This document shows, one piece after another, positions 19,442-31,779 of a stretch of DNA of 45,692 nucleotides. Source of the stretch: Actinomycetota bacterium (lineage in GTDB: Bacteria; Actinomycetota; Acidimicrobiia; Acidimicrobiales; AC-14); the NCBI GenBank assembly GCA_040754375.1, contig JBFMCT010000028.1, positions 1-45,692 on the forward strand, in the 5' to 3' direction. A program made the translations under genes and the position numbers. Every line of letters starts with the position of its first letter. Within the stretch, counting starts at the first letter, position 1. The notes beneath the pieces are model-generated. The model saw only the letters and a program-made list of their open reading frames with translations, was not told the DNA's origin and did no database searches.

Positions 19442-20236
19442 GTGCCTGTGGACCCGTGCGCCCTGCTCGAACTGGCCGAGACGGCCGCCCGGGAGGCCGG
19501 TGACCTGCTGTTGGGCCGGCTCCGCCACGCGCGGCGGTCGGTCACGACCAAGTCGACCTCGACCGACATGGTCTCGGAGATGGACCGGGCGGCCGAGGCC
19601 CTGATCCTCGACCGGTTGCTGGGGGCCCGGCCCGAGGACTCGGTCCTGGCCGAGGAAGGTGGCGCCCGCACGGGGACGAGCGAGGTCCGCTGGGTGATCG
19701 ACCCCCTCGACGGCACGACCAACTACCTCTACGGCCATCCCCGCTGGTCGGTCTCGATCGCGGCCGAGGTGGGGGGCGAGGTGGTGGCCGGGGTGGTGGC
19801 CGACCCCTCCCTCGACGAGGTCTTCACCGCCGTGCGGGGAGGCGGCGCCCACCTCAACGGCCAGCCCATAGCCTGTTCGGACAAGAACGACCTGGCCACC
19901 GCCCTGCTGGCCACGGGGTTCTCCTACCAGCCCGAGCGCCGCGCCCGCCAGGCCGAGGTCCTGGTGCACGTGGTCCCCCGGGCCCGGGACATCCGCCGCC
20001 ACGGCGTGGCCTCCCTCGACCTGTGCTGGGTGGCCAACGGGCGCCTGGACGGCTACTACGAGACCGGCCTGCAGCCCTGGGACGTGGCCGCCGGCGCCCT
20101 CATCGCCACCGAGGCCGGGGCCACCATCAGCAGCCTCGACGGCGGCCCCCCGGCCAGCTCGTCCCTGCTGGCGGCCGCGCCCGGCGTGGCCCCCGCCCTC
20201 GTCCACCTCCTAAGGGAAGCCATCTCCTCCCGCTGA
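19442..20236 (+). CDS. Inositol monophosphatase family protein
   Basis: Mg-dependent, Li-sensitive phosphatase family (264 residues). Metal-binding motifs in order: STDMVSEMDRAAE, VLAEEGG, WVIDPLDGTTNYLYGHP (DPxDGTxN) and LQPWDVAAGALIATEAG (WDxAAG). Substrates in the family include myo-inositol-1-phosphate, histidinol phosphate and others; in actinobacteria inositol supply for mycothiol and phosphatidylinositol is likely, and the neighbouring LmbE deacetylase would fit that pathway (inference). GTG start supported by the TAGGGT box. Confidence 0.9.
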   Translation: MPVDPCALLELAETAAREAGDLLLGRLRHARRSVTTKSTSTDMVSEMDRAAEALILDRLLGARPEDSVLAEEGGARTGTSEVRWVIDPLDGTTNYLYGHPRWSVSIAAEVGGEVVAGVVADPSLDEVFTAVRGGGAHLNGQPIACSDKNDLATALLATGFSYQPERRARQAEVLVHVVPRARDIRRHGVASLDLCWVANGRLDGYYETGLQPWDVAAGALIATEAGATISSLDGGPPASSSLLAAAPGVAPALVHLLREAISSR

Positions 20237-20300
20237 CGGCCAGCCAGGCCGGGCCCCGACGTTTAGGGAGCCCCCAGCCGGCAATGAGGGCAACCCCGGG

Positions 20301-20329
20301 TTCAACCGGGACAAGCCCGTTCTTACGAT
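20301..20329 (+). promoter_or_regulatory. Promoter of the seven-gene hydroxylase/GH3/two-component operon
   Basis: TTCAAC (20301-20306), 17-nt spacer, TACGAT (20324-20329), then 6 nt to ATG 20336. One of few places in the window with both a -35-like and a -10 box; the transcript would be leaderless. Confidence 0.5.
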
Positions 20330-20335
20330 CACGCC

Positions 20336-21712
20336 ATGTCGTCACAGGTCGAGATCGTCAGCGAGCGGGCCCCGGTCGTCGAGCCCTCAGGTCGGACCGG
20401 GGGCCGGCCCCCCCACGTCGGGCTGCTGGGACTTCTGGCCGCTCTGTTCGTCGGTCGGGTGGTTGCCCAGCTCGTCCAGTACGTCCACCCTGTCGGCTTC
20501 CTGCCCCCCTTCGAGGACTGGCAGAGCGGCGCCCTCCCCTACGCCGCCCTGGTCGGCGCGCAACTGGCCATCATCGCCGGCCAGCTCCGAGTGATCCGCG
20601 CCGTCGGCCGGGGCCATCGCCTGCTGGGCCGCCCGTGGCGAACGGCGGTCCACACCTTCGCGCTCGCCTACGGCGTGGTGATGGCCCTGCGGCTGGTGGC
20701 TGGGCTCACGTTCGCGGCCGGCGGCGGGTGGCTTGACGCTCGCCTGCCCACGCTCTTCCACCTTGGGTTGGCCGCCTTCCTGCTGATCTGGACCGACCAC
20801 GAAGCCGGGGCCGAGCGGGCCGATGTCCCCTCTGGCCGGCCGGTGGTCACGCCGTGGGCCATGCGGGCGCTCTTCTACCCGGTGGTCGTAGTCGGCGCCT
20901 GCGTCTGCTTCTACGTGCTGGACAGCAGCGGCGCCCCCACCACGGTGGCCGCCTACGCCCCCATTCTGGTGGCCGCCGTGCTGATCACCGCGGCCGAGGT
21001 GCGCTTCCCCTACCGCTCCGCCTGGTCGCCCGACCGCCAGACGGTGAGGACCGACCTGGCCTTCATGGCCGTCGTGCAGATGGTGGTCCCGGCCTTCGCG
21101 GCGATCGCCTTCGCGCTGTCCGCCAGTGCGGTCGTCGGGTCGGGGCTGGCCGCCGACCGCCTGTGGCCCGACCACCTCCCCGGGGTCGCCCAGGTCGCGC
21201 TGATGCTGTTCGTGGCCGACTTCCTGCGGTACTGGCAGCACCGGGCCATGCACCGCAGCCCGGCGCTGTGGCGGCTCCACGCCGTCCACCACTCCCCGGA
21301 CCGGCTGTACTGGTTCAACGTCGGCCGCTTCCACCCGCTGGAGGAGATCGTCCAGTCGCTGGTCGAGACGCTCCCCTTCGTCATCCTGGGCGTCGACGGG
21401 CGGGTGATGGCCGGCTACTACGTCTTCTACGCCGTCAACGGCTTCTTCCAGCACTCGAACTGCGACGTGCGGCTCGGCCCCGTCAACCTGCTGATCGCCG
21501 GGCCCGAACTGCACCGCTGGCACCACGCGGCGGACGTGGGCGAGTCCAACCACAACTACGGGAACAAGCTCATCATCTGGGACACCCTCTTCGGCACCCG
21601 GTTCCTGCCCGCGGACCGCGAGGTGGGCGAGCTCGGCAACGGGGAGCCGTCCTACCCGAAGACCTTCGCCGGCCAGGTGGCGGCGCCGTTCCGTCGTACG
21701 GCCGGTGCGTGA
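20336..21712 (+). CDS. Fatty acid hydroxylase / sterol desaturase superfamily membrane protein
   Basis: Integral membrane di-iron oxygenase of 458 residues. The N-terminal half has about six hydrophobic helices not needed for the catalytic domain. The C-terminal half has the His clusters of the superfamily: QHRAMHR (His302, His306), LHAVHHSP (about 314-319), FQHSNCD and LHRWHHAADVGESNHNYG. It would hydroxylate or desaturate a lipid, fatty acid or isoprenoid; the substrate cannot be read from sequence. It is first in the operon and its TGA overlaps the ATG of the GH3 gene (TGATG). Confidence 0.88.
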   Translation: MSSQVEIVSERAPVVEPSGRTGGRPPHVGLLGLLAALFVGRVVAQLVQYVHPVGFLPPFEDWQSGALPYAALVGAQLAIIAGQLRVIRAVGRGHRLLGRPWRTAVHTFALAYGVVMALRLVAGLTFAAGGGWLDARLPTLFHLGLAAFLLIWTDHEAGAERADVPSGRPVVTPWAMRALFYPVVVVGACVCFYVLDSSGAPTTVAAYAPILVAAVLITAAEVRFPYRSAWSPDRQTVRTDLAFMAVVQMVVPAFAAIAFALSASAVVGSGLAADRLWPDHLPGVAQVALMLFVADFLRYWQHRAMHRSPALWRLHAVHHSPDRLYWFNVGRFHPLEEIVQSLVETLPFVILGVDGRVMAGYYVFYAVNGFFQHSNCDVRLGPVNLLIAGPELHRWHHAADVGESNHNYGNKLIIWDTLFGTRFLPADREVGELGNGEPSYPKTFAGQVAAPFRRTAGA

Positions 21713-23415
21713 TGGCCGGCCTGCTGAACGGGCTGACGGGGGCCGTCGGGGGGAAGGCGCTGGACGTGGGGCTGGGCCGGCGACGGCGGCGGTTGTGGGG
21801 CGAACTGAGGGCGCAAGCGGCCGACCCGGCCCAGGCCCAGGCCGAGACCCTGGCCGAGATCCTGGCCCTCAACGCGGGCACCACGTTCGGGCGTGAGCAC
21901 GGCTTGGGCTCGGTCCGGTCGCCGGCCGACTTCGCCAAGGCCGTGCCCGTGAACGACTACGAGTCGTTGCGGCCCTACGTCGAACGCCAGGAGTCCACCG
22001 GCGAGCCCGCCCTCACGGCCGAGCGGCCGCTGCTCTACGCCACGACCAGCGGCACCACGGGTACACCCAAGTTCCTGCCCGTGACCCCGACCGGGCTTCG
22101 CCGCCAGGCCAAGGCGCAGGGCCTGTTCTCTTCCATGCTCCACGCCTCCACCGGGGCGCTGTCGGGCCGCATCCTCGGCCTTGCCGGGCCTGCGGTCGAG
22201 GGCTACCGCCCGGGGGGAACGCCCTACGGCTCGGCCAGCGGCCTGATCCTCGAGAGCCTGCCGGCCCTCATCCGCCGCCGCTACGTGATCCCGCCCGCGG
22301 TACTGCACATCGCCGACCACGCCGCGCGCTACTACGTCACCGCCGCCCTAGCCCTCGCCGAAGGCGACCTCACCGTGATGGCCACCGCCAACCCGTCGAC
22401 TCTGCTGCGGGTGCGCCAGGTGATCGTCGAGCGCTGGTCCGACCTCCTCGACGACCTCGGCGCGGGCCGGCTGCGGGGTGCCGGGGACATCGGGCCGCAA
22501 TGGCCCCGGGAGGTCACGGCCGCCCTCCGCCCCGGGAGCCGGCGGGCCGCCCAGCTCCGTGCTCTTGGCGCCCCGGCGGACCTCACCTTCGGCGAGCTCT
22601 GGCCCCGGTTGGCAGCCGTCACCACTTGGACGGGCGGCAGTTGCGGGCTGGCCGTGGCCGGGTTGCGGGACCTGCTGGCCCCCACCACAGCCGTGGTCGA
22701 GCTGGGCTACCTGGCGACCGAGGTGCGGGGGACGGTGGCGGTGGACACGACCAGCGGGAACTGCGTGCCGACCCTGGGCGACAACTTCTTCGAGTTCGTC
22801 GACCGGGGGGCCCGCGACGGCGAGGGCGAGGGCGGCCACGTCGGCCACGGCCCGTTCCTCACCCTCGCCGAGCTGGAACAGGGCCGCCAGTACTACGTGT
22901 ACGTCACCACCTTCGACGGGTTGTACCGCTACGACATGAACGACGTCGTCGAAGTCACTGGTTGGTTCGGCCGGGCGCCGTGCCTGGCCTTCGTCCAGAA
23001 GGGCAAGGGCTTCACCAACATCACCGGCGAGAAGCTCCACGAGAGCCAAGTCATCGAGGCCGTGGTAGCCGCCGGCCAGGGCCGGGCCCCGGGTGGAGGC
23101 TTCTTCCTCATGCTGGCCGACACAGCCACGGCCACCTACCGGCTGTACGTGGAGGGACCGGTCCACGGCCACGACCTCGACGGCGTCGCCCGGGCCGTCG
23201 ACGAGGCGCTGGCCCGGCTCAACGTCGAGTACCGCTCCAAGCGGGCCAGCGGCCGGCTCCAACCGGTCGTCGCCCGGGAGCTGCGAACCGGGACGGGCGA
23301 GGCCTACCGGTCCCACTGCGTGGCCAACGGGCAACGCGACGCCCAGTTCAAGGTAATGCCCCTGCAGCGGTCCGAGGACTTCACCTTCGACCTCGCCCCC
23401 GCGGTCGTGGCCTGA
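21712..23415 (+). CDS. GH3 family acyl-acid amido synthetase-like protein
   Basis: ANL-superfamily enzyme of 567 residues. Plant GH3 enzymes adenylate a carboxylic acid (auxin, jasmonate, benzoate) and couple it to an amino acid. Motif I is YATTSGTTGTPKFLPV (about 109-124), motif II ELGYLATEVRG, motif III LYRYDMNDVVEVTG; LGDNFFEFV, GKGFTNITGEKLHESQV and a C-terminal QFKVMPL Lys follow. Bacterial members exist but few have known substrates. Its place between a hydroxylase and an enolase-superfamily enzyme suggests an acyl-amino-acid product (inference). The next gene starts 3 nt after the stop. Confidence 0.88.
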   Translation: MAGLLNGLTGAVGGKALDVGLGRRRRRLWGELRAQAADPAQAQAETLAEILALNAGTTFGREHGLGSVRSPADFAKAVPVNDYESLRPYVERQESTGEPALTAERPLLYATTSGTTGTPKFLPVTPTGLRRQAKAQGLFSSMLHASTGALSGRILGLAGPAVEGYRPGGTPYGSASGLILESLPALIRRRYVIPPAVLHIADHAARYYVTAALALAEGDLTVMATANPSTLLRVRQVIVERWSDLLDDLGAGRLRGAGDIGPQWPREVTAALRPGSRRAAQLRALGAPADLTFGELWPRLAAVTTWTGGSCGLAVAGLRDLLAPTTAVVELGYLATEVRGTVAVDTTSGNCVPTLGDNFFEFVDRGARDGEGEGGHVGHGPFLTLAELEQGRQYYVYVTTFDGLYRYDMNDVVEVTGWFGRAPCLAFVQKGKGFTNITGEKLHESQVIEAVVAAGQGRAPGGGFFLMLADTATATYRLYVEGPVHGHDLDGVARAVDEALARLNVEYRSKRASGRLQPVVARELRTGTGEAYRSHCVANGQRDAQFKVMPLQRSEDFTFDLAPAVVA

Positions 23416-23418
23416 ACG

Positions 23419-24609
23419 ATGACCGGGACGCGCATCGACCGGGTCGAGCTGTCGAGCTTCCCGGCCCGCTTCCGGGTCACCGTGCGGCACGCGTCCGCCG
23501 TCCGGGCGGCCACCGAGAACGTCATCGTCCAGGTCCGCACGGCGAGCGGCGCGACGGGCGTCGGAGAGGGCTGCCCCCGCCGCTATGTCACCGGTGAGAC
23601 CGTGCAGTCCGCCCGCGCCTTTCTGGGGGACGTGGCCCCAGGAGCGGCCGCCGCGGCCACGACAGTGGACGGCCTGCGCTCATGGATGGCGGACCACCGC
23701 GAGAGCATCGACGCCAATCCCGCCGCCTTCTGCGCCCTCGAGCTGGCCCTGCTCGACGCGCTGGGCCATGACCAGGGTGTGCCCGTGGAAGACCTCCTCG
23801 GCCTGCCCGAACTGGAGGGGGTGGCACGCTACACGGCCGTCATCGGCGACAGCGGCCGCTGGGTGTTCGCCGTGCTGCTCCAGCGCTACCTGGCCATGGG
23901 GTTGTCGGACTTCAAGCTCAAGCTGTCGGGCTCGCTGGCCCGGGACCGGCGGAAGCTGGCTCGGCTCCGGCGCCGGGGCCCGGTTGTGCGCGTGAGGGTC
24001 GACGCCAACAACCTGTGGGGCGACGCCCGCGAGTGCATCGAACACTTGCAGCGCCTCGACTTTCCCTTCACCGCCATCGAGGAGCCCCTGGCGGCCAACG
24101 ACCTCGCCGGGTTCGCGGCCGTGGCCGCCGCCCTCGGGGCCCCGGTGGTGATCGACGAGAGCGCCTTGCGGGGTGACCAGCTCGCCCGCCTACCCGGGCC
24201 CGCCGGGAGCTGGGCGCTCAACTGCCGCGTCTCCAAGATGGGGGGCCTGCTGCGTTCACTGGCCGCCGTGGAAGCGGCCCGTGCGATCGGCATGGGTGTC
24301 ATCGTGGGTGCCCACGTGGGCGAGACGAGCATCCTCAGCCGGGCCGCCCTGACCGTCGCCGCCCACGCCGGTGACGGCCTGGTCGGCCAGGAGGGAGCGT
24401 TCGGCACGAAGCTGCTGCACCGCGACCTCGTATCCCCGGTCGTGATGTTCGGCCGCCGGGGGGAGCTGCACGTAGGCGCCGCCCCGTACCGCCGGGCGCC
24501 GGGCCTGGGCCTCACGGTCGACCAGTCCGCCCTCGTGGGGCGCGAAGTCCTCGTCGGACGCGCCGGGCTCACCGACGGTGGTCCCCGGCCGGCACAGCCG
24601 CCCGCGTGA
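23419..24609 (+). CDS. Enolase-superfamily enzyme (muconate lactonising / dipeptide epimerase type)
   Basis: Metal-dependent TIM-barrel enzyme of 396 residues. Catalytic Lys166-x-Lys168 are in DFKLKLSG; the metal ligands are Asp195 (RVDANNLW), Glu221 (IEEPLA) and Asp246 (IDESAL); Lys273 is in CRVSKMGGLL. This KxK...D/E/D...K layout is that of the MLE subgroup, which includes dipeptide epimerases, N-succinylamino acid racemases and OSBS. Next to a GH3 amide synthetase, epimerisation of an amino-acid conjugate is the most attractive role (inference). Its TGA overlaps the GTG of the next gene. Confidence 0.87.
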   Translation: MTGTRIDRVELSSFPARFRVTVRHASAVRAATENVIVQVRTASGATGVGEGCPRRYVTGETVQSARAFLGDVAPGAAAAATTVDGLRSWMADHRESIDANPAAFCALELALLDALGHDQGVPVEDLLGLPELEGVARYTAVIGDSGRWVFAVLLQRYLAMGLSDFKLKLSGSLARDRRKLARLRRRGPVVRVRVDANNLWGDARECIEHLQRLDFPFTAIEEPLAANDLAGFAAVAAALGAPVVIDESALRGDQLARLPGPAGSWALNCRVSKMGGLLRSLAAVEAARAIGMGVIVGAHVGETSILSRAALTVAAHAGDGLVGQEGAFGTKLLHRDLVSPVVMFGRRGELHVGAAPYRRAPGLGLTVDQSALVGREVLVGRAGLTDGGPRPAQPPA

Positions 24610-25814
24610 ACGCGCGGCAGCTTGCCGGCCGATTGGGCCTGGGTGAACCCGCCTCCGACCACTACCTTCTGCCGGTGGCTCTAACCCGCGAAACAGTGGC
24701 GCCCGCCGGCGGCGACGCGTTGCTCGACAGTTGGCGGAGCCGCAACTGCAGCGCGTCGGCCTCAGCCTGGCTCTACCACCTCGGTCTTGATGCCTTCTCC
24801 GCCATCGAGCACTTCCGTAGAGACCCGAGGTCCGCAGGCCCGTTCGGCTGCCTGCTCCTCCGCGACGTCGTGGCCTTCGCATCGGTCTACTGCGACAAGG
24901 GCGGCTCTCAGGCGGTCACCAAGGCGCTCATCTCAATGGCGGCGGCCACCGACCTGGTGGCCGCACACGCCCTTCGCCAGCACATCCCGGCGACTGCATT
25001 CGAGGCTGACCGAGCCATGAGCCAGTTCGGGCTGAGCTTCGGGTGGGCCGTCCAACTGGGTTCCTCCCGGGGCCCAGGTGAGCGCCTGGCCGCCTACGCC
25101 GCCCCGGTGGCCATGCAGGTCGCCCTCTCGTCGTTGTGGGGCCTGCGGGGACGAAGGCGGGCGGCTTACGTCCTCCGCGAGGCGGCGTGGTCGGTCATCG
25201 CCCTCTCGTGCATCGCCCAGCTGAGCGCCCTGATGCGCCAGGCGGTCGACGACGGCTACGCCGCAGCTGTGAAGCTCAACGCCCTGGCGGCCGCCGAGAA
25301 CCAGGCCCGGGCGACCCTGCAGGCCCGCCAGGACACGCATGACCACCTGGTCAACCGGGCCCTGGTGGACTTCGCGGGCTGGGCCGAGACCATGGCGATG
25401 AAAGCCGGGCTGGCCCCCCTGGTCGCCGACCTGGCCCGAGCCGAGGCCGACGGGTGGCGTCACTGCCCAGAAGCCGGTGCGGTGACCGTCAACTGCCTCC
25501 GGCTACGGATCGTCTGTGCCCCCCAACCGGGCCCGGGCACCGTGGCCCAGTCCGCCAACCTCGACCCGGCTGACGGCCTGCTCTTCACCCGCGGGGCTGA
25601 CCACGCCACCGTCTCGTGGCTCACGGCCGCGGCCAGGTCAGCGGGGAGCCCTCTGTCCGTCGAGTTGTCGGTCAGCCAGGGCAGCCTCGACTTGAACCTC
25701 GCCGCCACCTCGTTCTCCGACCTGACCGGCCGGCCGCCGGCTGTGGCATGTTCGGCCGAAGCTGGCCGAACCGTCCTGGCGGCGCGCCTTGCGCTTCAGG
25801 CGGGCGTGCGGTGA
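24606..25814 (+). CDS. Membrane protein with histidine-kinase-like dimerisation helix (possible phospho-acceptor half of a split kinase)
   Basis: No family recognised. The 402-residue product has a helical, partly hydrophobic N-terminal part (about 80-210), then a coiled-coil-like stretch AAAENQARATLQARQDTHDH with His245 and His247, resembling the DHp helix of HisKA_3-type kinases, then a mixed alpha/beta C-terminal region (about 270-400). I see no N, G1 or G2 box, so it should not bind ATP itself. The next gene encodes a kinase ATPase domain without an obvious acceptor His, and the two reading frames overlap by GTGA at both ends. A heteromeric kinase is inferred. Confidence 0.6.
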   Translation: MNARQLAGRLGLGEPASDHYLLPVALTRETVAPAGGDALLDSWRSRNCSASASAWLYHLGLDAFSAIEHFRRDPRSAGPFGCLLLRDVVAFASVYCDKGGSQAVTKALISMAAATDLVAAHALRQHIPATAFEADRAMSQFGLSFGWAVQLGSSRGPGERLAAYAAPVAMQVALSSLWGLRGRRRAAYVLREAAWSVIALSCIAQLSALMRQAVDDGYAAAVKLNALAAAENQARATLQARQDTHDHLVNRALVDFAGWAETMAMKAGLAPLVADLARAEADGWRHCPEAGAVTVNCLRLRIVCAPQPGPGTVAQSANLDPADGLLFTRGADHATVSWLTAAARSAGSPLSVELSVSQGSLDLNLAATSFSDLTGRPPAVACSAEAGRTVLAARLALQAGVR

Positions 25815-27004
25815 AGGCCAACGGCCCTAGGAGCAGGGCACCGCTCGGCATCTACCACCAGGCCGTTCAGAGCCCGATGCTCATGATGGCCCTCGAACCT
25901 TGGGCGTGGTCGGTCGTCGGGCTGGTGGCCCGGCCCAACCATCGCAAGCGCCAACTGCTCGCCACCGCGGCGCTCCACTCCGCCCACTCGGGCTGGGTCT
26001 ACTGGCGGCTACGGCGACGGCCCGAGCTCGCCGCCGACCGGTCCTGGTTGGCCCGCCATGGCGTGCTGACCGCCGCTCGCTACCTGGTGTACCCGGCCAT
26101 CGCTGACCGCCGGACCTACTGGCGGTCGAATGCCGACGATTCCGCCTTCTTCATGCAGGCGTGGGCCCCGGTGGTGCTGCTGGGGGCCGCGGGCAGCCCG
26201 GCCGTGGCCACGGCACCGCGAGCAATGGCCTCCGGCTTCGCGGTGGGTGCCACCCTCTACCTGGCCGGGGCACGCCTCAACGGGGAGCGGCTCACCCGGC
26301 TCGGTGTGGTCGCCGGCCAGAGGGTCCTCAACTACTCGGTGTCCTCGGCCATGGTCGGGCTCGTCGTCCACATCATCGTGCGGCTTCTCAACGACGCCTC
26401 TGAGACGATCGAGAAGGAGAAGGAGGAGTTCGGGCGGGTCTACCAGGACGAGGAGTACCGCAGGATGGTCCGGTCCGGGCGCGAGGAGGACACCGCGTTG
26501 CTCGACTCGCTGGCGGCGGTCGCCAGCCGGCACTTCGCAGGCTCACCTGAACTAGCGAGTGGGGTCCGGCGCCTGGTGGACGCCAAGGCCGAGACCCTGG
26601 CCGCCGAGGTCCCACCCCTGCGGGCCGTGGGCCTAGCCGACCTGGCCGCGGCCACCGCCGAGCCGTTCCCGCTAGCGGTGCGGGTCACGAGCCCGCAGGA
26701 GGCGTCCCTGGCGGCCCACGAGGCGGTCGCCGTGCCCATCTTCCTGAAGAACGCTTTCGACAACGCCGTTCGGCGAGGCCATGCGACCGAGGCCCAGGTG
26801 ACGTACACGTGTGCCGGCAACGTGGCCCGGCTAACGGTCTCGGACAACGGCAGAGGCTTCATCGGCGAGCCCGGGCTGGTCAACGGTCATGGCCTGGCCA
26901 TAGCTCAGGCGATGTTCCGGAGCATGGGCGGCGATGTCAGCGTCGGGAACGCCCCAACTGGAGGAGCAGAGGTGAGCGGTTGGTGGACCAGGCAGCCCGA
27001 GTGA
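25811..27004 (+). CDS. Membrane sensor histidine kinase, ATPase-bearing subunit
   Basis: In this 397-residue protein, hydrophobic segments (about 25-60, 85-100, 115-190) are followed by a charged coiled coil (ETIEKEKEEFGRVYQDEE), a helical region and a C-terminal HATPase domain: N box FLKNAFDNAVRRG (311-323), G1 SDNGRGF (344-350), G2 NGHGLAIAQAMF (358-369), then GGAEVSGWW. A canonical acceptor His with the usual flanking acids is not clear; the only His in the right area is His241 (ASRHFAG). The GTG start overlaps the previous TGA, and its own TGA overlaps the GTG of the response regulator. Confidence 0.78.
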   Translation: MKANGPRSRAPLGIYHQAVQSPMLMMALEPWAWSVVGLVARPNHRKRQLLATAALHSAHSGWVYWRLRRRPELAADRSWLARHGVLTAARYLVYPAIADRRTYWRSNADDSAFFMQAWAPVVLLGAAGSPAVATAPRAMASGFAVGATLYLAGARLNGERLTRLGVVAGQRVLNYSVSSAMVGLVVHIIVRLLNDASETIEKEKEEFGRVYQDEEYRRMVRSGREEDTALLDSLAAVASRHFAGSPELASGVRRLVDAKAETLAAEVPPLRAVGLADLAAATAEPFPLAVRVTSPQEASLAAHEAVAVPIFLKNAFDNAVRRGHATEAQVTYTCAGNVARLTVSDNGRGFIGEPGLVNGHGLAIAQAMFRSMGGDVSVGNAPTGGAEVSGWWTRQPE

Positions 27005-27846
27005 GCGCCGACCGGATCGGCCTGCTCGTCGTGGAGGACCAGAAGACGACTCGCGAGATGGTCGTGGATCACCTCGAGGCCTATACCGACGGCAACGGTC
27101 GCCACCGGTACACGGTCGTTGCCCAGGCTGAGACTGCCGAGGAGGCGACTTCACTGATCGTCAACCACGATGTCGACTTCTCGGTGGCCGTGCTCGATCT
27201 CGCCCTCAGCCATCCCGACCACTACCCCCACGGGTTCGAGCTGGCCGAGTTGGTCCATAACCAGCGCCCCGATGTCCGGATCGTGCTCTGGAGCGCGTGG
27301 ATGAGCGTCGAGGGCGACCTGCTGCGACGGGCCTCCCAGCCCTTCGGTGACCGCTTCCTGGTCGACGCCATCGTTTCGAAAGAACACTCCCTGCTCGACC
27401 TCATGGAGGCCATCAACACGGTATGCACGATGCCAAGCGTCTACCTCTGGGTCGACCCCCGTCTCCGCCCACCGCGGAGTTACTCGGCCGTCCTCGACCT
27501 GACCCAAGCCGAGGACGAGTGGCTGCGCGACTTCGCCCAGAACCCGGGGGGCAGGCCCAGGGACGCCATGGACCGGCTGGGGATCAAGTCGGGGGCCTAC
27601 TACGAGCGACGTGACAAGACCAAGCTGAAGGTCGTCAAGGAGCTGACGACGCGCCGGAGCCCGCTATTGCGGTCGACGCCTGTGGCCGGGGCGAAGAGCG
27701 ACAACCTGCTCCCCGACAGCGTTCTGTGGGAGTGGGCCCACCAGCGCTACCTCGACTGGCCCCTGACCCGCAGGGAGAAGGTCGCCCGGGCGGAGGCCCG
27801 CAACCCCAACGAGGGTGGGGCCCTGGGGGGCTCCTCTGGGGGCTGA
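27001..27846 (+). CDS. Atypical response regulator with LuxR-like C-terminal region
   Basis: Receiver domain (about 1-140) with acidic pair Glu12-Asp13 (VVEDQ), phospho-acceptor Asp66 (VAVLDLALS), Ser98 and Lys127 (IVSKEHS). The helical C-terminal part starts with LTQAEDEWLRDFA and continues RLGIKSGAYYERRDKTKLKV, which follows the LuxR/GerE helix-turn-helix pattern loosely, then a long basic tail (about 210-281) of unknown role. At 281 residues it is longer than typical NarL-type regulators (about 210). It is the obvious partner of the two kinase-like proteins upstream. The alpha/beta hydrolase gene starts inside its 3' end. Confidence 0.8.
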   Translation: MSADRIGLLVVEDQKTTREMVVDHLEAYTDGNGRHRYTVVAQAETAEEATSLIVNHDVDFSVAVLDLALSHPDHYPHGFELAELVHNQRPDVRIVLWSAWMSVEGDLLRRASQPFGDRFLVDAIVSKEHSLLDLMEAINTVCTMPSVYLWVDPRLRPPRSYSAVLDLTQAEDEWLRDFAQNPGGRPRDAMDRLGIKSGAYYERRDKTKLKVVKELTTRRSPLLRSTPVAGAKSDNLLPDSVLWEWAHQRYLDWPLTRREKVARAEARNPNEGGALGGSSGG

Positions 27847-28771
27847 CGGCTACGGCACGGGGCTGGCTGAGGCGTGGCGGGAGGGTCGCGACGCCCTGGC
27901 CCCGACGGAGCTCGTTCTCGACGGGCGGCGAATCACCTATGTCGAATGCGGCACGGGGGAACCAGCGTGCATCCTGCTCCACGGGATCGCCAACACGTGG
28001 CGGTTCTGGACAGCGGTGGCCCCGGCCCTGGCCGCGGGGCGCCGGGTGGTCGCGCTCGACCTGCCGGGTTTCGGCGGCTCCGACCCCCTCGACGGGGACC
28101 TGACCGCCCCCGCCGCGGCCAGCGCCGTGATCGAGGCTTGCGACGCCCTCGGCATCGGGCACCTGTCGGTCGTCGGCCACTCGATGGGGGCCCTCGTCGC
28201 CTTGGCAATGGCGACGGCCCGGCCAGAGCGCGTCGTGCGGGTGGTCGTCGTCGGAGGGGCGTTGCTCGGAGTCCTCGACCTCTACGCCAGCGCCCGCCAC
28301 GTCGTACGCCATCCATTGAGGGCCCTCCGACTGGTGTCGGTCGTGGTGCAGGGAGCGTTCCCGGCACCGGGCTGGCTGCTCGACGAGGTGGCCCGCTGGA
28401 GAGCCCTCCGCTACCTCACGCTCCGGCCGTACCTGCGCTGGCCGGGGCGCTTGGCGTCCGAACCTCTGCGGGACTGCCTGGAGGGTGTCGGCCGCCCGGC
28501 GGTCCTCGCCGCCGCCAGGAACGCGGGCCGCTTCGACCTCGCGGGAGCGGCCCACCAGGTGGCCGGCCCCGTACTGGTGATCAACGGCGACGGCGACCGC
28601 TTGTCGCCCCCCTCCGATGCCCTGCGGCTCTCCGGCCTGTTCGATGACGGCCGGCTCGAGCTCGTCGCCGGGGCAGCCCACTGGCCGATGATCGAGCGCC
28701 ACCAGCAGGTGGCCAGGCTGATCGCGGACTTCCTGGGCCCAGAGGATCACGCGGTGAGAACCGGGCAGTAG
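27815..28771 (+). CDS. Alpha/beta hydrolase
   Basis: Serine hydrolase of 318 residues. The oxyanion-hole segment is LLHGIANTWRFW, the nucleophile Ser123 is in VVGHSMGALVALAMA, the acid Asp is in VINGDGDRLSPP, and the catalytic His in AGAAHWPMIERH. A cap region (about 150-230) is rich in Arg and Leu and may sit at the membrane. The substrate is unknown; as last gene of the operon it could hydrolyse the amide or ester made by the GH3 enzyme (inference). GTG 27815 overlaps the response regulator by 32 nt; there is no better start before LVLDGRRITYVECG. Confidence 0.86.
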   Translation: MGPWGAPLGADGYGTGLAEAWREGRDALAPTELVLDGRRITYVECGTGEPACILLHGIANTWRFWTAVAPALAAGRRVVALDLPGFGGSDPLDGDLTAPAAASAVIEACDALGIGHLSVVGHSMGALVALAMATARPERVVRVVVVGGALLGVLDLYASARHVVRHPLRALRLVSVVVQGAFPAPGWLLDEVARWRALRYLTLRPYLRWPGRLASEPLRDCLEGVGRPAVLAAARNAGRFDLAGAAHQVAGPVLVINGDGDRLSPPSDALRLSGLFDDGRLELVAGAAHWPMIERHQQVARLIADFLGPEDHAVRTGQ

Positions 28772-29132
28772 CCCTACCGGGCACCCGGCAAGTCTCGGCT
28801 GGCCACGCGGGACAGCGCGTTGGGGCCCGCGTTAGCCGCCTGCCGCCCCCGCGAACGAACTCCGCCGAAGCCGGGCATCGGCCCGTACCGACGCACCAAA
28901 GACCTCGGCGGTAAGCCGCGGGTACTCCCCTGGGCCGCGCCTTGGCCGTCCGTCAGCATCTGGGGTGCCGGCTAGGCGCGTGTGGCTCACCTGGAAGTGG
29001 TCCACACGCCCGTACCGGCACTTGACAACCGGTACGTGAGGAAGACCCACGGCGCGTGGGCTCCCGGATTCGCACTCCTGAGCCTATCGCGCGCCCTGGC
29101 CCTGCTTCCTCGCCCAGCGAAAGCGAGCGCCC
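28772..29132. other. Non-coding stretch between the operon and the small peptide ORF
   Basis: About 360 nt without a convincing gene. It contains the inverted repeat at 29011-29036 and several shorter GC-rich stems, for example around the CGGCGGTAAGCCGCGGGTAC at 28911. No tRNA or known riboswitch was recognised. Confidence 0.5.
29011..29036. promoter_or_regulatory. Inverted repeat enclosing a TTGACA box
   Basis: Perfect 8-bp arms CGTACCGG (29011-29018) and CCGGTACG (29029-29036) with a 10-nt spacer that contains a consensus -35 TTGACA (29022-29027). The -10 at the expected distance is poor. The layout is that of an operator over a promoter upstream of the small ORF at 29133. Confidence 0.4.
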
Positions 29133-29306
29133 ATGAACCAGAGCGTGTTGGTCGAGCCGCGGCACGACAGCCCCACGGAGATCCCCGAGAGGGGAATGGC
29201 ACAGCCCGGCCGGAGCCGGAAGTTCCTCACCGGCTTCATCGTCTCGGTCCTGGCCCCGGTGGTGGTCACCGGTGTGGCCTGGGCAGAAGGGTGTGCCTGT
29301 GGTTGA
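29133..29306 (+). CDS. Small ORF encoding a secreted-peptide-like product
   Basis: Product of 57 residues: a polar N-terminus of 24 residues, a basic RSRK, a hydrophobic helix FLTGFIVSVLAPVVVTGVAW (31-50) and the end AEGCACG. The AWA at 49-51 fits a signal peptidase I site, which would release the hexapeptide EGCACG. There is no match to a known pheromone or lasso peptide family. Only a weak ribosome site (GAAAGCGAG) precedes ATG 29133. It follows the two-component operon on the same strand. It could also be a chance ORF. Confidence 0.4.
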   Translation: MNQSVLVEPRHDSPTEIPERGMAQPGRSRKFLTGFIVSVLAPVVVTGVAWAEGCACG

Positions 29307-29332
29307 TAGCCCCTAGGGGTATCCCTTAGGGA
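29305..29332. promoter_or_regulatory. Tandem palindromes, CsoR-operator-like
   Basis: GATAGCCCCTAGGGGTATC (29305-29323) is a near-perfect palindrome resembling CsoR/RcnR-type operators, followed by TCCCTTAGGGA (29322-29332). It lies between the small ORF and the convergent regulator gene, so a terminator is the main alternative. Confidence 0.35.
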
Positions 29333-29361
29333 AGGACGAGCGGATGGTGCGGGCCGCGGGG

Positions 29362-31779
29362 CTATGCCTCGCCGCCCGCACCTTCTCGCCTGACCAGGTC
29401 GATGGCGTCGGTGAGGTCCATCGCCCGGCCGGCGTTCAACGAACGGCTGGCTTCCCCCGGGGTCACATGCCGGCCGCAGCCGCTCAGCACGTCGGACCGC
29501 ATGGCGTCCTGGTCAGGACGGGGAGACGCCCTCATCTCCTCCCACAGCCCGTCGGCTGTGCCGACGAGCTTCAGCGCAGTCCGCCACCTCTTCTCCCGAG
29601 TGAAGGCCGCGGCCAGGATCACCAGGGTCGCGGCGGACCACGGGCGGTCACCGAGTTGCTGGAAGGCAACCAGCGCGTCCAGGGCGAGGACCTCGGCCGA
29701 CTCGGTGGCCCCTCGCTTGTAGGCCAGGCGGGCAAGCATGGTCGTCGTCGTCGCCAGGCCCCGGGCGTCGCCGAGGGCGATCTGGGCCCGCCTGCAACCC
29801 GCCAGCCACTCCTGGGCCTCCTCGTACTGGCCTTCCTTCTCGGCGGCCCACGCCAGGTTGCTGAGCGCGAGGGTCTGGTTGAACCGGTCGCCGACATCGC
29901 GCAGGAGCCGCGCCGCGTCCGTCCAGTGGAGGCACGCCTGGTCGACCTCGCCGCGATGGCGGCTGATCATGCCGCGGCCGATGAGGGCCTGCGCCCGGCC
30001 CCGGTCGTCCCCGATCGAGTGGTACAGCGCCACGGCCGCGGCGAAGCAGCGGTCGGCCTCGTCGAGCAGCGAGCGTTGCTCGGCCAGCGCCCCCTGGTTG
30101 AGCAGGGCCAAGGCCACGACATCGGGGAGCCCGAGGCGTTCGGCCATCGCGGCCGCAGCCGCCAGCACCTGTTCGGCCTCGTCGTAGTGGCCCGTCACCC
30201 AGGCGAGGGCCCCGGCTGCGGCCAACGCCACCGCTCTGGCCCGGCTTGGCCCCGTTGAGCCCGCAAGGGCCTTGGCCAGCCATTGCCGGCCAGTGGGGAT
30301 GTCCCGCATGAGCATGAAGCGCCAGGTGCTGGCCGCGATGTCGAGTGCCATCGCCGGGTCGTGCTCGATCGCCCAGTCGAACGCCGTCCGGATGTTGGCC
30401 ACCTCGAGGGCCAGCTCCGCGACGCAGTCGGATTGCTTGACACCCGTAAGCCCGGCCCCGCACCGGCCCGCCAACGCCGCGAAGTAGCGGGCATGGGCGC
30501 CGCGGACCACCTGTTCATCGCCCGCGATCGCCAGGCGGTTGGCGGCATAGGAGCGGATGCTGGCCAGCATGTCGAAGCGGGGCAGGTCACGATCGTCAGG
30601 CCAGTGCTCGATCAGGCTCTTGCCGGCAAGCGATGCCAGAAGCCCGAGGGTGCGGACGCCGTCCCCGCCCCCGACGGCCGACGCGCCCTCGGCATCGAAG
30701 CCACCGGCAAAGACGGACAGGCGGTCCAGCAGCCGGGCCTCGTCCTCGTCGAGGAGGGCCCAGCTGGCCGCGATCGCACTGGCCAGGGACTGGTGGTGGT
30801 CGGGCAAGTCCGCGGGCGCACCCTCGCCCAGCCTCAGCGGGGAGGCAGCCTGGTGGGCAAGGGTGGCCGCTCCGTGGAACGGAGCTCGTCCCGCGGCCAG
30901 GACGATGGCGAGCGGTAGCCCGTCGACGAGCGTGCACATCTGGGCGACGGCTAGGCAGTTCCGTTCGTTCAGGTCGAACCGAGGGTCGGCCATCTTCGCC
31001 CGGGAGACGAACAACTCCACCGCCGTAGAGGTGGCGATCTCAGCCAGGGACCGATGGGTGCTCAGGTCGGGCACCGTGAGAAGCGGAACAGGGAAGACGT
31101 GCTCGTTCACGAGGCCGAGTGCCTCCCTGCTGGTGACCAGCACCCGAAGGCCGGGGGCGGTGGCGCACAACCGGCTGACCAGCGAGCGGGCCTCGATCAC
31201 GTGCTCGAAGTTGTCGAGCACGAGGAGCGACTGCTGGCCTCGGAGCCGCTGGACCAGAGCATCCTCCTGGTCCGAACCGCCAGTGGCGGACACGGCCAGC
31301 TCCCGACAAACCCGGCCGACGACACCGCCCGCCTCGCCAACGTCGAGCAGCGAGACCCACCAGGCCCCGTTGACGAGTGCGGGATCGAGACGGTTCGCGA
31401 CCTCCGACGCCAGCCGGGTCTTGCCGATCCCGGGCGGACCGACGAGTGTGACCAGCCGGGCGGCGCCCTCCATCGCCGAGACCAGGGAGCCGAGCTCGGC
31501 CCCCCGCCCGACGAGGGTGTCGGGCGGGACGGGAAGGGGCGGCCGGGCGACGTCGCTGCTGGTGGCGTGCAGCAGGGCATCGGCAGGCTTACCGGCGACC
31601 TGCGCGAGCCGGGCAACGAACTGCCGGGTCGGTGGGCGGCTACCGCCCTCGATCTTGGCTATGTAGTTGGCGTCATAGCCGAGGGCCTCGCCGAGGGCCG
31701 CCTGCGACAGGCGGTTCGTGTGCCGCCACTGCTTGAGCCACTTCCTGAGATCTGCACCCGGCTGGTCGTCCGCCCCCAT
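29362..31779 (-). CDS. XRE-HTH / STAND ATPase / TPR regulator
   Basis: Multi-domain regulator of 805 residues. An N-terminal Cro/CI-type helix-turn-helix (about 10-65: LSQAALGEALGYDANYIAKI) precedes an NB-ARC-like STAND ATPase with P-loop VGPPGIGKTR (113-122), Walker B LLVLDNFEHV, VTSREALGL and GLPLAIVLAAGR; then a winged-helix-like region and a long helical-repeat part (about 430-780) with TPR-like units (HYDEAEQVLAAAAAMAERLG, and QYEEAQEWLAGCRRAQIALG). Such proteins switch between ADP- and ATP-bound states when the repeats bind a signal. A GGAGG site precedes ATG 31779. It converges on the two-component operon and is an independent transcription unit. Confidence 0.88.
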   Translation of the reverse strand: MGADDQPGADLRKWLKQWRHTNRLSQAALGEALGYDANYIAKIEGGSRPPTRQFVARLAQVAGKPADALLHATSSDVARPPLPVPPDTLVGRGAELGSLVSAMEGAARLVTLVGPPGIGKTRLASEVANRLDPALVNGAWWVSLLDVGEAGGVVGRVCRELAVSATGGSDQEDALVQRLRGQQSLLVLDNFEHVIEARSLVSRLCATAPGLRVLVTSREALGLVNEHVFPVPLLTVPDLSTHRSLAEIATSTAVELFVSRAKMADPRFDLNERNCLAVAQMCTLVDGLPLAIVLAAGRAPFHGAATLAHQAASPLRLGEGAPADLPDHHQSLASAIAASWALLDEDEARLLDRLSVFAGGFDAEGASAVGGGDGVRTLGLLASLAGKSLIEHWPDDRDLPRFDMLASIRSYAANRLAIAGDEQVVRGAHARYFAALAGRCGAGLTGVKQSDCVAELALEVANIRTAFDWAIEHDPAMALDIAASTWRFMLMRDIPTGRQWLAKALAGSTGPSRARAVALAAAGALAWVTGHYDEAEQVLAAAAAMAERLGLPDVVALALLNQGALAEQRSLLDEADRCFAAAVALYHSIGDDRGRAQALIGRGMISRHRGEVDQACLHWTDAARLLRDVGDRFNQTLALSNLAWAAEKEGQYEEAQEWLAGCRRAQIALGDARGLATTTTMLARLAYKRGATESAEVLALDALVAFQQLGDRPWSAATLVILAAAFTREKRWRTALKLVGTADGLWEEMRASPRPDQDAMRSDVLSGCGRHVTPGEASRSLNAGRAMDLTDAIDLVRREGAGGEA

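Follow-up and report, generated by a model that had tools for sequence, protein, structure and literature searches.

What do seven closely packed genes on the plus strand of contig JBFMCT010000028.1, from an actinobacterium of the order Acidimicrobiales (assembly GCA_040754375.1), do together, and do they form one system at all? The stretch analyzed here (hereafter, the window) comprises 45,692 nucleotides and is part of a draft genome with 105 contigs. An initial annotation proposed that the seven genes make, sense and hydrolyze an acyl-amino-acid signal, in analogy to plant hormone conjugates. Comparison with related genomes reveals a different organization. Genes 1-3 are a conserved cassette with four predicted modules, namely, a four-helix membrane protein of about 150 amino acids, an iron oxygenase, a GH3 amide synthetase and an enolase-superfamily enzyme, whereas genes 4-7 are a tail so far found in this lineage only.

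Conservation of genes 1-3

Using the GH3 protein encoded by gene 2 as the query, we searched 397 genomes of the window's order and obtained matches in 20, the window's own genome included; the nine other searched genomes of the window's family had no match. We fetched 17 of the 19 other GH3 loci, leaving out G394 (a fragment of 90 residues where a contig ends) and G217 (with an identity of 26%), and merged L003 and L004 with L036 and L043, respectively, the contigs of which have equal lengths, so that each was counted once. An enolase gene adjoins the GH3 gene in all of these 17 loci except L052, which carries only a distant GH3 (28-30% identity). Both an oxygenase and the membrane protein are present in 15 of the 16 enolase-linked loci, and the sixteenth, L048, stops inside GH3. 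The membrane protein of L049 is broken into two frames. In the nearest relative, the GH3 gene (L043:9041-10866, minus strand) consists of two adjacent open frames of 362 and 246 amino acids, which reflects either a true split or an assembly error.

The modules are arranged in four ways. The order membrane protein-hydroxylase-GH3-enolase is found in the window, L036, L043 and L047, and the order hydroxylase-GH3-enolase-membrane protein in L037-L042 and L044-L046. Where the oxygenase is a heme-oxygenase-like iron protein (HDO), the order is either membrane protein-HDO-enolase-GH3 (L049-L051) or HDO-enolase-GH3-membrane protein, the latter in the phylum Rokubacteria (L007, L109, L110 and L111, with L011 stopping inside GH3). 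The GH3 profile matches 13 of the 95 genomes from that phylum; in each of the five strong genomes (>500 bits), the best locus shows the oxygenase-enolase-GH3 arrangement, in four cases with the membrane protein, and the eight weaker genomes were not fetched. The membrane protein of L111 (8842-10092, plus strand) might be 416 amino acids long, with a C-terminal part that belongs to no Pfam family, unless the gene call is overlong. One of the five strong Rokubacteria genomes, G763, contains a second, distant GH3 gene without cassette partners (L112:5296-6657, minus strand). In the proteobacterial genome G768, the oxygenase and enolase genes are on one contig and the GH3 gene is on another.

The same association emerges from the distribution of the enolase. 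An enolase profile run against 372 genomes of the order detected 18 at E <= 1e-50, and 17 of these, with scores of 460-615 bits, correspond to the genomes with a linked GH3, namely, the window's own and 16 others; the next one, G146, scores 187 bits and is absent from the 20 genomes with GH3. High scores are expected for the 16 of the 17 strong enolases that belong to the search profile; the G079 enolase, which is outside the profile, still reaches 460.6 bits, and no further sampled genome comes into that range. The GH3 matches without a strong enolase are G211 and G217 (both distant) and G394 (the fragment), insofar as these three belong to the 372 genomes. Conserved neighbors in two phyla thus uphold the initial view that hydroxylase, GH3 and enolase belong together, and the comparison of gene neighborhoods that had been asked for recovers genes 1-3, and not genes 4-7, as a unit.

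Across the window's phylum, GH3 matches were found in 8 of 396 genomes, its own included; the loci L070, L071 and L072 were fetched, and the weak matches in G641, G647, G673 and G721 were not. L071 contains only a GH3 fragment at a contig end and L072 only a weak match, whereas L070, from a different family of the phylum, combines GH3 with an enolase of the same arginine type as that of the cassette (see below) and an S33-type hydrolase. Beyond close relatives, clustered gene calls identified no further common neighbors of the cassette; the most widespread neighbors occur in five loci of one genus, and most of the neighbors lack functional annotation. A transfer of the cassette from the nearest relative would be a possibility, but no clear signal of it was found: the phosphofructokinase is 72% identical to that of G167, compared to 66-77% for the cassette.

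The GH3 synthetase

Gene 2 (21712..23415, plus strand; Pfam GH3, GH3_M and GH3_C) scores 183.1 bits against the Pfam GH3 domain, for a cut-off of 23.6. Each of the 14 aligned GH3 proteins carries motif I (T112-SGT..PK) and motif III (G403-LYRYD..D411) in invariant form; the ATP-binding motifs of such enzymes are thus kept, and the product of gene 2 is a predicted GH3-type, ATP-dependent acyl amide synthetase, as initially annotated. Plant amido synthetases rank first among the relatives of solved structure (7dk8, E 8.4e-30). This resemblance, together with the patchy spread (20 of 397 genomes), would be compatible with a cassette that degrades or detoxifies an external carboxylic acid through plant-like GH3 conjugation and has no part in lipid synthesis. 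However, the membrane hydroxylase and the dedicated membrane protein point to a lipid substrate, and no further neighbor is common beyond close relatives, with the proviso that most neighbors are functionally unannotated; we consider detoxification quite improbable.

The closest characterized system is the OlsH/OlsI ornithine-lipid pathway reported in 2025 for Singulisphaera acidiphila, in which the GH3-related protein OlsH uses ATP to convert free fatty acids into N-acyl ornithine, prefers ornithine and non-hydroxylated acids, and is encoded in an operon with the N-methyltransferase OlsG and the O-acyltransferase OlsI; for OlsH homologues outside planctomycetes, the authors expect other amino acids (PMC12493201). 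The motif-I serine required by OlsH is retained in the cassette GH3 proteins. The window could represent this pathway itself, in which case gene 1 would correspond to OlsE and gene 7 would supply the O-acyltransferase. The OlsH model is matched by each of the 14 aligned GH3 proteins of the cassette (best E 3.5e-34), none of which matches any other NCBIfam model at E <= 0.001; gene 1 matches the OlsE model, and the window's genome encodes no protein with PF13444, the OlsB family. However, the scores are well short of the respective cut-offs, namely, 74.4 of 620 bits for gene 2 against OlsH (NF052613), 177.5 of 475 for gene 1 against OlsE (NF052566) and 34.8 of 385 for gene 7 against OlsI. Furthermore, gene 7 does not accompany the cassettes of relatives, so that the joint olsH-olsI operon is not reproduced, and the main text of the OlsH report (PMC12493201) contains 0 occurrences of enolase or racemase. 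Identity with the ornithine-lipid pathway accordingly seems improbable, if slightly less so than detoxification.

In a GH3 tree of 33 rows, from which L043 (with GH3 in two frames), L071, L072 and L083 were left out, the HDO-linked proteins form a clade of 8 rows (support 98/96), and the hydroxylase-linked proteins, L048 among them, form one of 13 rows (100/100). GH3 proteins that are not linked to a cassette fall between the two clades with moderate support (86/87 and 87/82), and the G768 protein is the sister of the HDO-linked clade (100/99).

The membrane module and the exchangeable oxygenase

Gene 1 (20336..21712, plus strand) encodes a four-helix membrane protein fused to an OlsE-like membrane hydroxylase; profile matches delimit the four-helix part at 20411-20821 and the hydroxylase part at 20861-21703. 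The fusion is found in the window and L043, and the two modules are encoded by separate genes in the other loci that have both. The first approximately 150 residues are modeled as a four-helix bundle (pLDDT 86.1). No Pfam family matches this module (L047 and L109 proteins), and a fold search with the model yielded a best E of 0.83, with none at 0.001.

The hydroxylase part scores 108.5 bits against Pfam FA_hydroxylase. Its histidine motifs, H132xxxH136, H145xxHH149 and H223xxHH227 (A4 numbering), are invariant in all 11 aligned hydroxylases (L039 and L045 are outside this alignment), and conform to the pattern of HxxxH, HxxHH and a second HxxHH that characterizes the fatty acid hydroxylase family PF04116. 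OlsE is the sole NCBIfam match of gene 1 and also of the L047 hydroxylase (177 bits). In other loci, this position is occupied by HDO, which belongs to PF14518 (64.1 bits for the L050 protein) and weakly matches CADD (E 0.0007). The cassette oxygenase is either of the fatty-acid-hydroxylase type or of the unrelated heme-oxygenase-like type, and the two occur together in no locus. Such an exchange next to a constant pair of GH3 and enolase suggests a single chemical step for which evolution arrived at two solutions.

An enolase with arginine in place of the second catalytic lysine

Gene 3 (23419..24609, plus strand; Pfam MR_MLE_N and C) encodes an enolase-superfamily protein similar to the muconate-lactonizing (MLE) subgroup. 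The KxK lysines and three metal ligands that characterize this subgroup (K166, K168, D195, E221 and D246) are invariant in 18 of 18 proteins. The nearest solved relatives by profile are the dipeptide epimerase 3jva (203.6 bits) and 2p88 (203.3 bits), presumably an N-succinyl-arginine racemase. The substrates of dipeptide epimerases contain an amide-linked amino acid, and an amide bond is also what GH3 forms. In this light, the enolase could be an epimerase that inverts the alpha-carbon of the GH3 product, so that the N-acyl amino acid becomes D-configured; Arg270 would then serve as the second base.

The dipeptide epimerase YkfB is reported to use two lysines, K162 and K268 (PMC5808125). By position count in the alignment, K162 corresponds to K168 of gene 3, and K268 corresponds to R270. 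Arginine occupies this position in 24 of 24 cassette-type enolases, including those of L070 and L083, within the motif NxRxSKxGG followed by VGE(T/S), whereas eight distinct control enolases from the searched genomes have six lysines, two aspartates and no arginine there; the genes of L075, L078, L081 and L076 recur as L083, L084, L086 and L085, and enter this count a single time. We also considered an enolase that keeps both catalytic lysines, with Lys273 as the second, and rejected this possibility given that the YkfB alignment places Arg270 at that site. Gene 3 thus lacks the second catalytic lysine of two-base racemases and epimerases, and the Arg270 signature marks a predicted enolase subfamily.

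Because an invariant arginine replaces this lysine, ordinary two-base epimerization appears doubtful. The pattern of residues is more readily reconciled with one-base chemistry, for instance, the dehydration of a hydroxylated product; one-lysine enolases may favor elimination, the reaction of o-succinylbenzoate synthase, and a dehydratase would suit the hydroxylase as a partner. The family resemblance to epimerases that underlay the initial assignment is confirmed and the two-lysine mechanism is not, so that inversion with Arg270 as the second base is an unlikely function, although one that deserves more weight than either ornithine-lipid synthesis or detoxification.

A possible lipoamino-acid pathway

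Gene content, its conservation, the exchange of oxygenases and the active-site residues are directly observed; from these, we infer the substrates, the order of steps and the product of a putative pathway. GH3 would adenylate a free fatty acid, or a similar acid, with ATP and couple the activated acid to an amino acid; the resulting N-acyl amino acid would retain a free carboxylate. Next, the membrane oxygenase, to which the four-helix module is either fused or added as a separate gene product, could hydroxylate this N-acyl amino acid on the head group or on the chain. A lysine of the enolase KxK motif would take the proton next to the free carboxylate, and Arg270 would stabilize the intermediate. 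Elimination of the new hydroxyl, that is, dehydration, is our first guess for what might follow, and epimerization with the arginine as the second base is the next one. That genes 1-3 are a lipoamino-acid cassette making a modified N-acyl amino acid of this kind seems to us a realistic prospect, with a probability somewhat below an even chance. It is a more tentative and rather unlikely proposition that the product represents a new class of bacterial lipids or lipid signals, in which the amino-acid part of an N-acyl amino acid is oxidized and then dehydrated or inverted by an Arg-for-Lys enolase subfamily, within a four-part cassette that accommodates two unrelated, interchangeable iron oxygenases.

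Several observations weigh against a lipoamino-acid cassette of this kind. The OlsE and OlsH models match the cassette proteins far below their cut-offs. The cassette includes no O-acyltransferase, so that a two-chain aminolipid is not implied. In nine of the 11 loci L005-L015, some of them on short contigs, GH3 has no adjoining enolase, and L070 contains neither an oxygenase nor the membrane protein within the 12 of its 31 kb that were read. Finally, the GH3 tree does not join the hydroxylase-linked clade and the HDO-linked clade as sisters, so that a twofold assembly of the cassette is conceivable. Nevertheless, the membrane protein is common to both types of cassette, which favors a common origin followed by losses over double assembly.

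The Arg-type enolase would extend a well-studied superfamily by a novel reaction or by a novel design of the active site. The cassette provides one set of GH3 proteins with fixed partners and so makes the product testable with few genes, in a cell-free assay.

Genes 4-7, a local tail

Genes 4-7 are outside the conserved cassette. Genes 4, 5 and 6 have no match at any of 36 GH3 or cassette loci (28 plus eight), where 5 kb on both sides of GH3 were covered in 17 of the 28, such that a more distant copy could escape. Gene 7 has only two weak, non-adjacent matches in the 28 loci (L007 and L049).

Gene 4 (24606..25814, plus strand) is an orphan. A search of 297 other genomes of the order detected no match for it, Pfam and NCBIfam offer no family at E <= 0.1, and its fold model is unusable (pLDDT 39.6). 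Gene 5 (25811..27004, plus strand) encodes a protein with a hydrophobic stretch and an ATPase domain of the histidine-kinase type (HATPase_c, 36.2 bits for a cut-off of 26.4) that matches the ATPase domain of DosT (E 0.0007). The proteins encoded by genes 4 and 5 do not align meaningfully; perhaps, gene 4 is a partner of the kinase-like gene 5. The product of gene 6 (27001..27846, plus strand) resembles response regulators: its receiver domain scores 24.8 bits, below the Pfam cut-off of 30.2, three response-regulator chains in PDB are matched with E 0.003-0.006, and, by our reading of the alignment, the phosphoacceptor Asp66 and Lys127 seem to be kept. Outside the window, 6 of 295 other genomes of the phylum contain a match of gene 6, always a weak one. 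Among genes 4-6, gene 6 alone matches PHROGs, namely, two families of unknown function (E 7.6e-07 and 0.008). Pfam supports the initial family assignments for FA_hydroxylase, GH3, MR_MLE, HATPase_c and alpha/beta hydrolase; the receiver is below the cut-off and gene 4 is left without a family.

Gene 7 (27815..28771, plus strand) encodes an alpha/beta hydrolase with a GHSMG nucleophile motif (Abhydrolase_1, 101.4 bits). The hydrolase family is as initially annotated, and the protein could be a hydrolase or, equally possibly, an acyltransferase like OlsI, even though it misses the cut-off of the OlsI model, with 19 other models scoring higher. Because it does not adjoin the cassettes of relatives, we place gene 7 outside the core. 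In L070 (4482-5390, minus strand), an S33-type alpha/beta hydrolase gene adjoins those for the enolase and GH3, which is a loose parallel to gene 7.

The L070 arrangement and the close or overlapping ends of all seven genes, which exceed the background of the window (see below), are what could be said for a seven-gene system that makes, senses and hydrolyzes an acyl-amino-acid signal. However, genes 4-6 are unmatched at the 36 loci, gene 4 is present in only one of 298 genomes (the window's own), gene 6 has only the weak matches mentioned above, and the L070 hydrolase does not match gene 7 at E 0.001. We rejected the seven-gene unit on these grounds and regard the corresponding signaling system as very improbable; nothing was found in support of plant-hormone-like signaling.

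Gene arrangement and transcription

The seven plus-strand genes and their junctions were read back from the sequence as initially described. Genes 1 and 2 meet in TGATG, with one base in common, genes 2 and 3 are separated by a 3-nt gap, the junctions 3/4, 4/5 and 5/6 are GTGA overlaps, and genes 6 and 7 overlap by 32 nt. Spacing between -5 and +4 nt is found in four of the six neighboring pairs of the set, compared to 3 of 22 other same-strand pairs in the window, according to rough gene calls. Because this tight spacing exceeds the background of the window, joint transcription of the seven genes is plausible, and genes 4-7 may be co-transcribed with genes 1-3. The promoter suggested at 20301-20329 was not recovered: a scan of 20100-29500, limited to the sigma-70-like type, detected no site, and a terminator scan of the same range found 0. 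At third codon positions, genes 1-3 have a GC content of 0.91-0.94, compared to 0.86-0.89 for genes 4-7, a weak hint at separate origins. Downstream, a 57-amino-acid open frame with one hydrophobic stretch (29133-29306, plus strand) stops where the initially annotated stretch ends, and a gene for a large regulator with a helix-turn-helix, an NB-ARC-type ATPase and TPR repeats (29362-31779, minus strand) faces the end of the operon.

Relationship to known systems

The initial annotation knew of no described bacterial system with this set of genes. A correction is required in view of OlsH/OlsI, a GH3-dependent bacterial lipid pathway, albeit one described without an enolase. Searching the open literature by title and the start of the abstract, a scope outside which most subscription papers and preprints fall, we found a single report of a GH3-dependent bacterial lipid pathway, no bacterial pathway that joins GH3 with an enolase-superfamily enzyme, and no work on Acidimicrobiia and ornithine lipid.

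Like the OlsH/OlsI system, the cassette groups a bacterial GH3 gene with putative lipid-modifying genes, and the ATP-binding motifs are common to both; unlike that system as described, it includes an enolase, and the GH3 protein of the window reaches only 74.4 of the 620 bits that the OlsH model requires. In ornithine lipids, OlsE is reported to hydroxylate the ornithine part (PMC3972451). The cassette hydroxylase belongs to the same family but differs from OlsE in being fused to, or located near, a four-helix protein, in being swapped elsewhere for a heme-oxygenase-like protein, and in its score (177.5 of 475 bits). With plant GH3 proteins such as GH3.8, GH3.15, JAR1 and GH3.12, the synthetase shares the family and the ATP-binding motifs, whereas its neighbors are an oxygenase and an enolase, and a plant-type signaling context was not found. 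The alternative oxygenase belongs to PF14518, as do heme-oxygenase-like iron oxygenases of the CADD/4-aminobenzoate synthase type, but, unlike the CADD-type enzymes, takes the place of a membrane hydroxylase. Dipeptide epimerases and N-succinyl amino acid racemases of the MLE subgroup, the substrates of which are amide-linked amino-acid carboxylates, have the family, the metal ligands and the KxK lysines in common with the cassette enolase, in which, however, the second acid/base lysine is replaced by arginine in 24 of 24 cases. Taken together, these comparisons suggest that the cassette is an apparently undescribed form of lipoamino-acid synthesis by GH3, in which the partner proteins are new as a set and the active site of the enolase is unusual.

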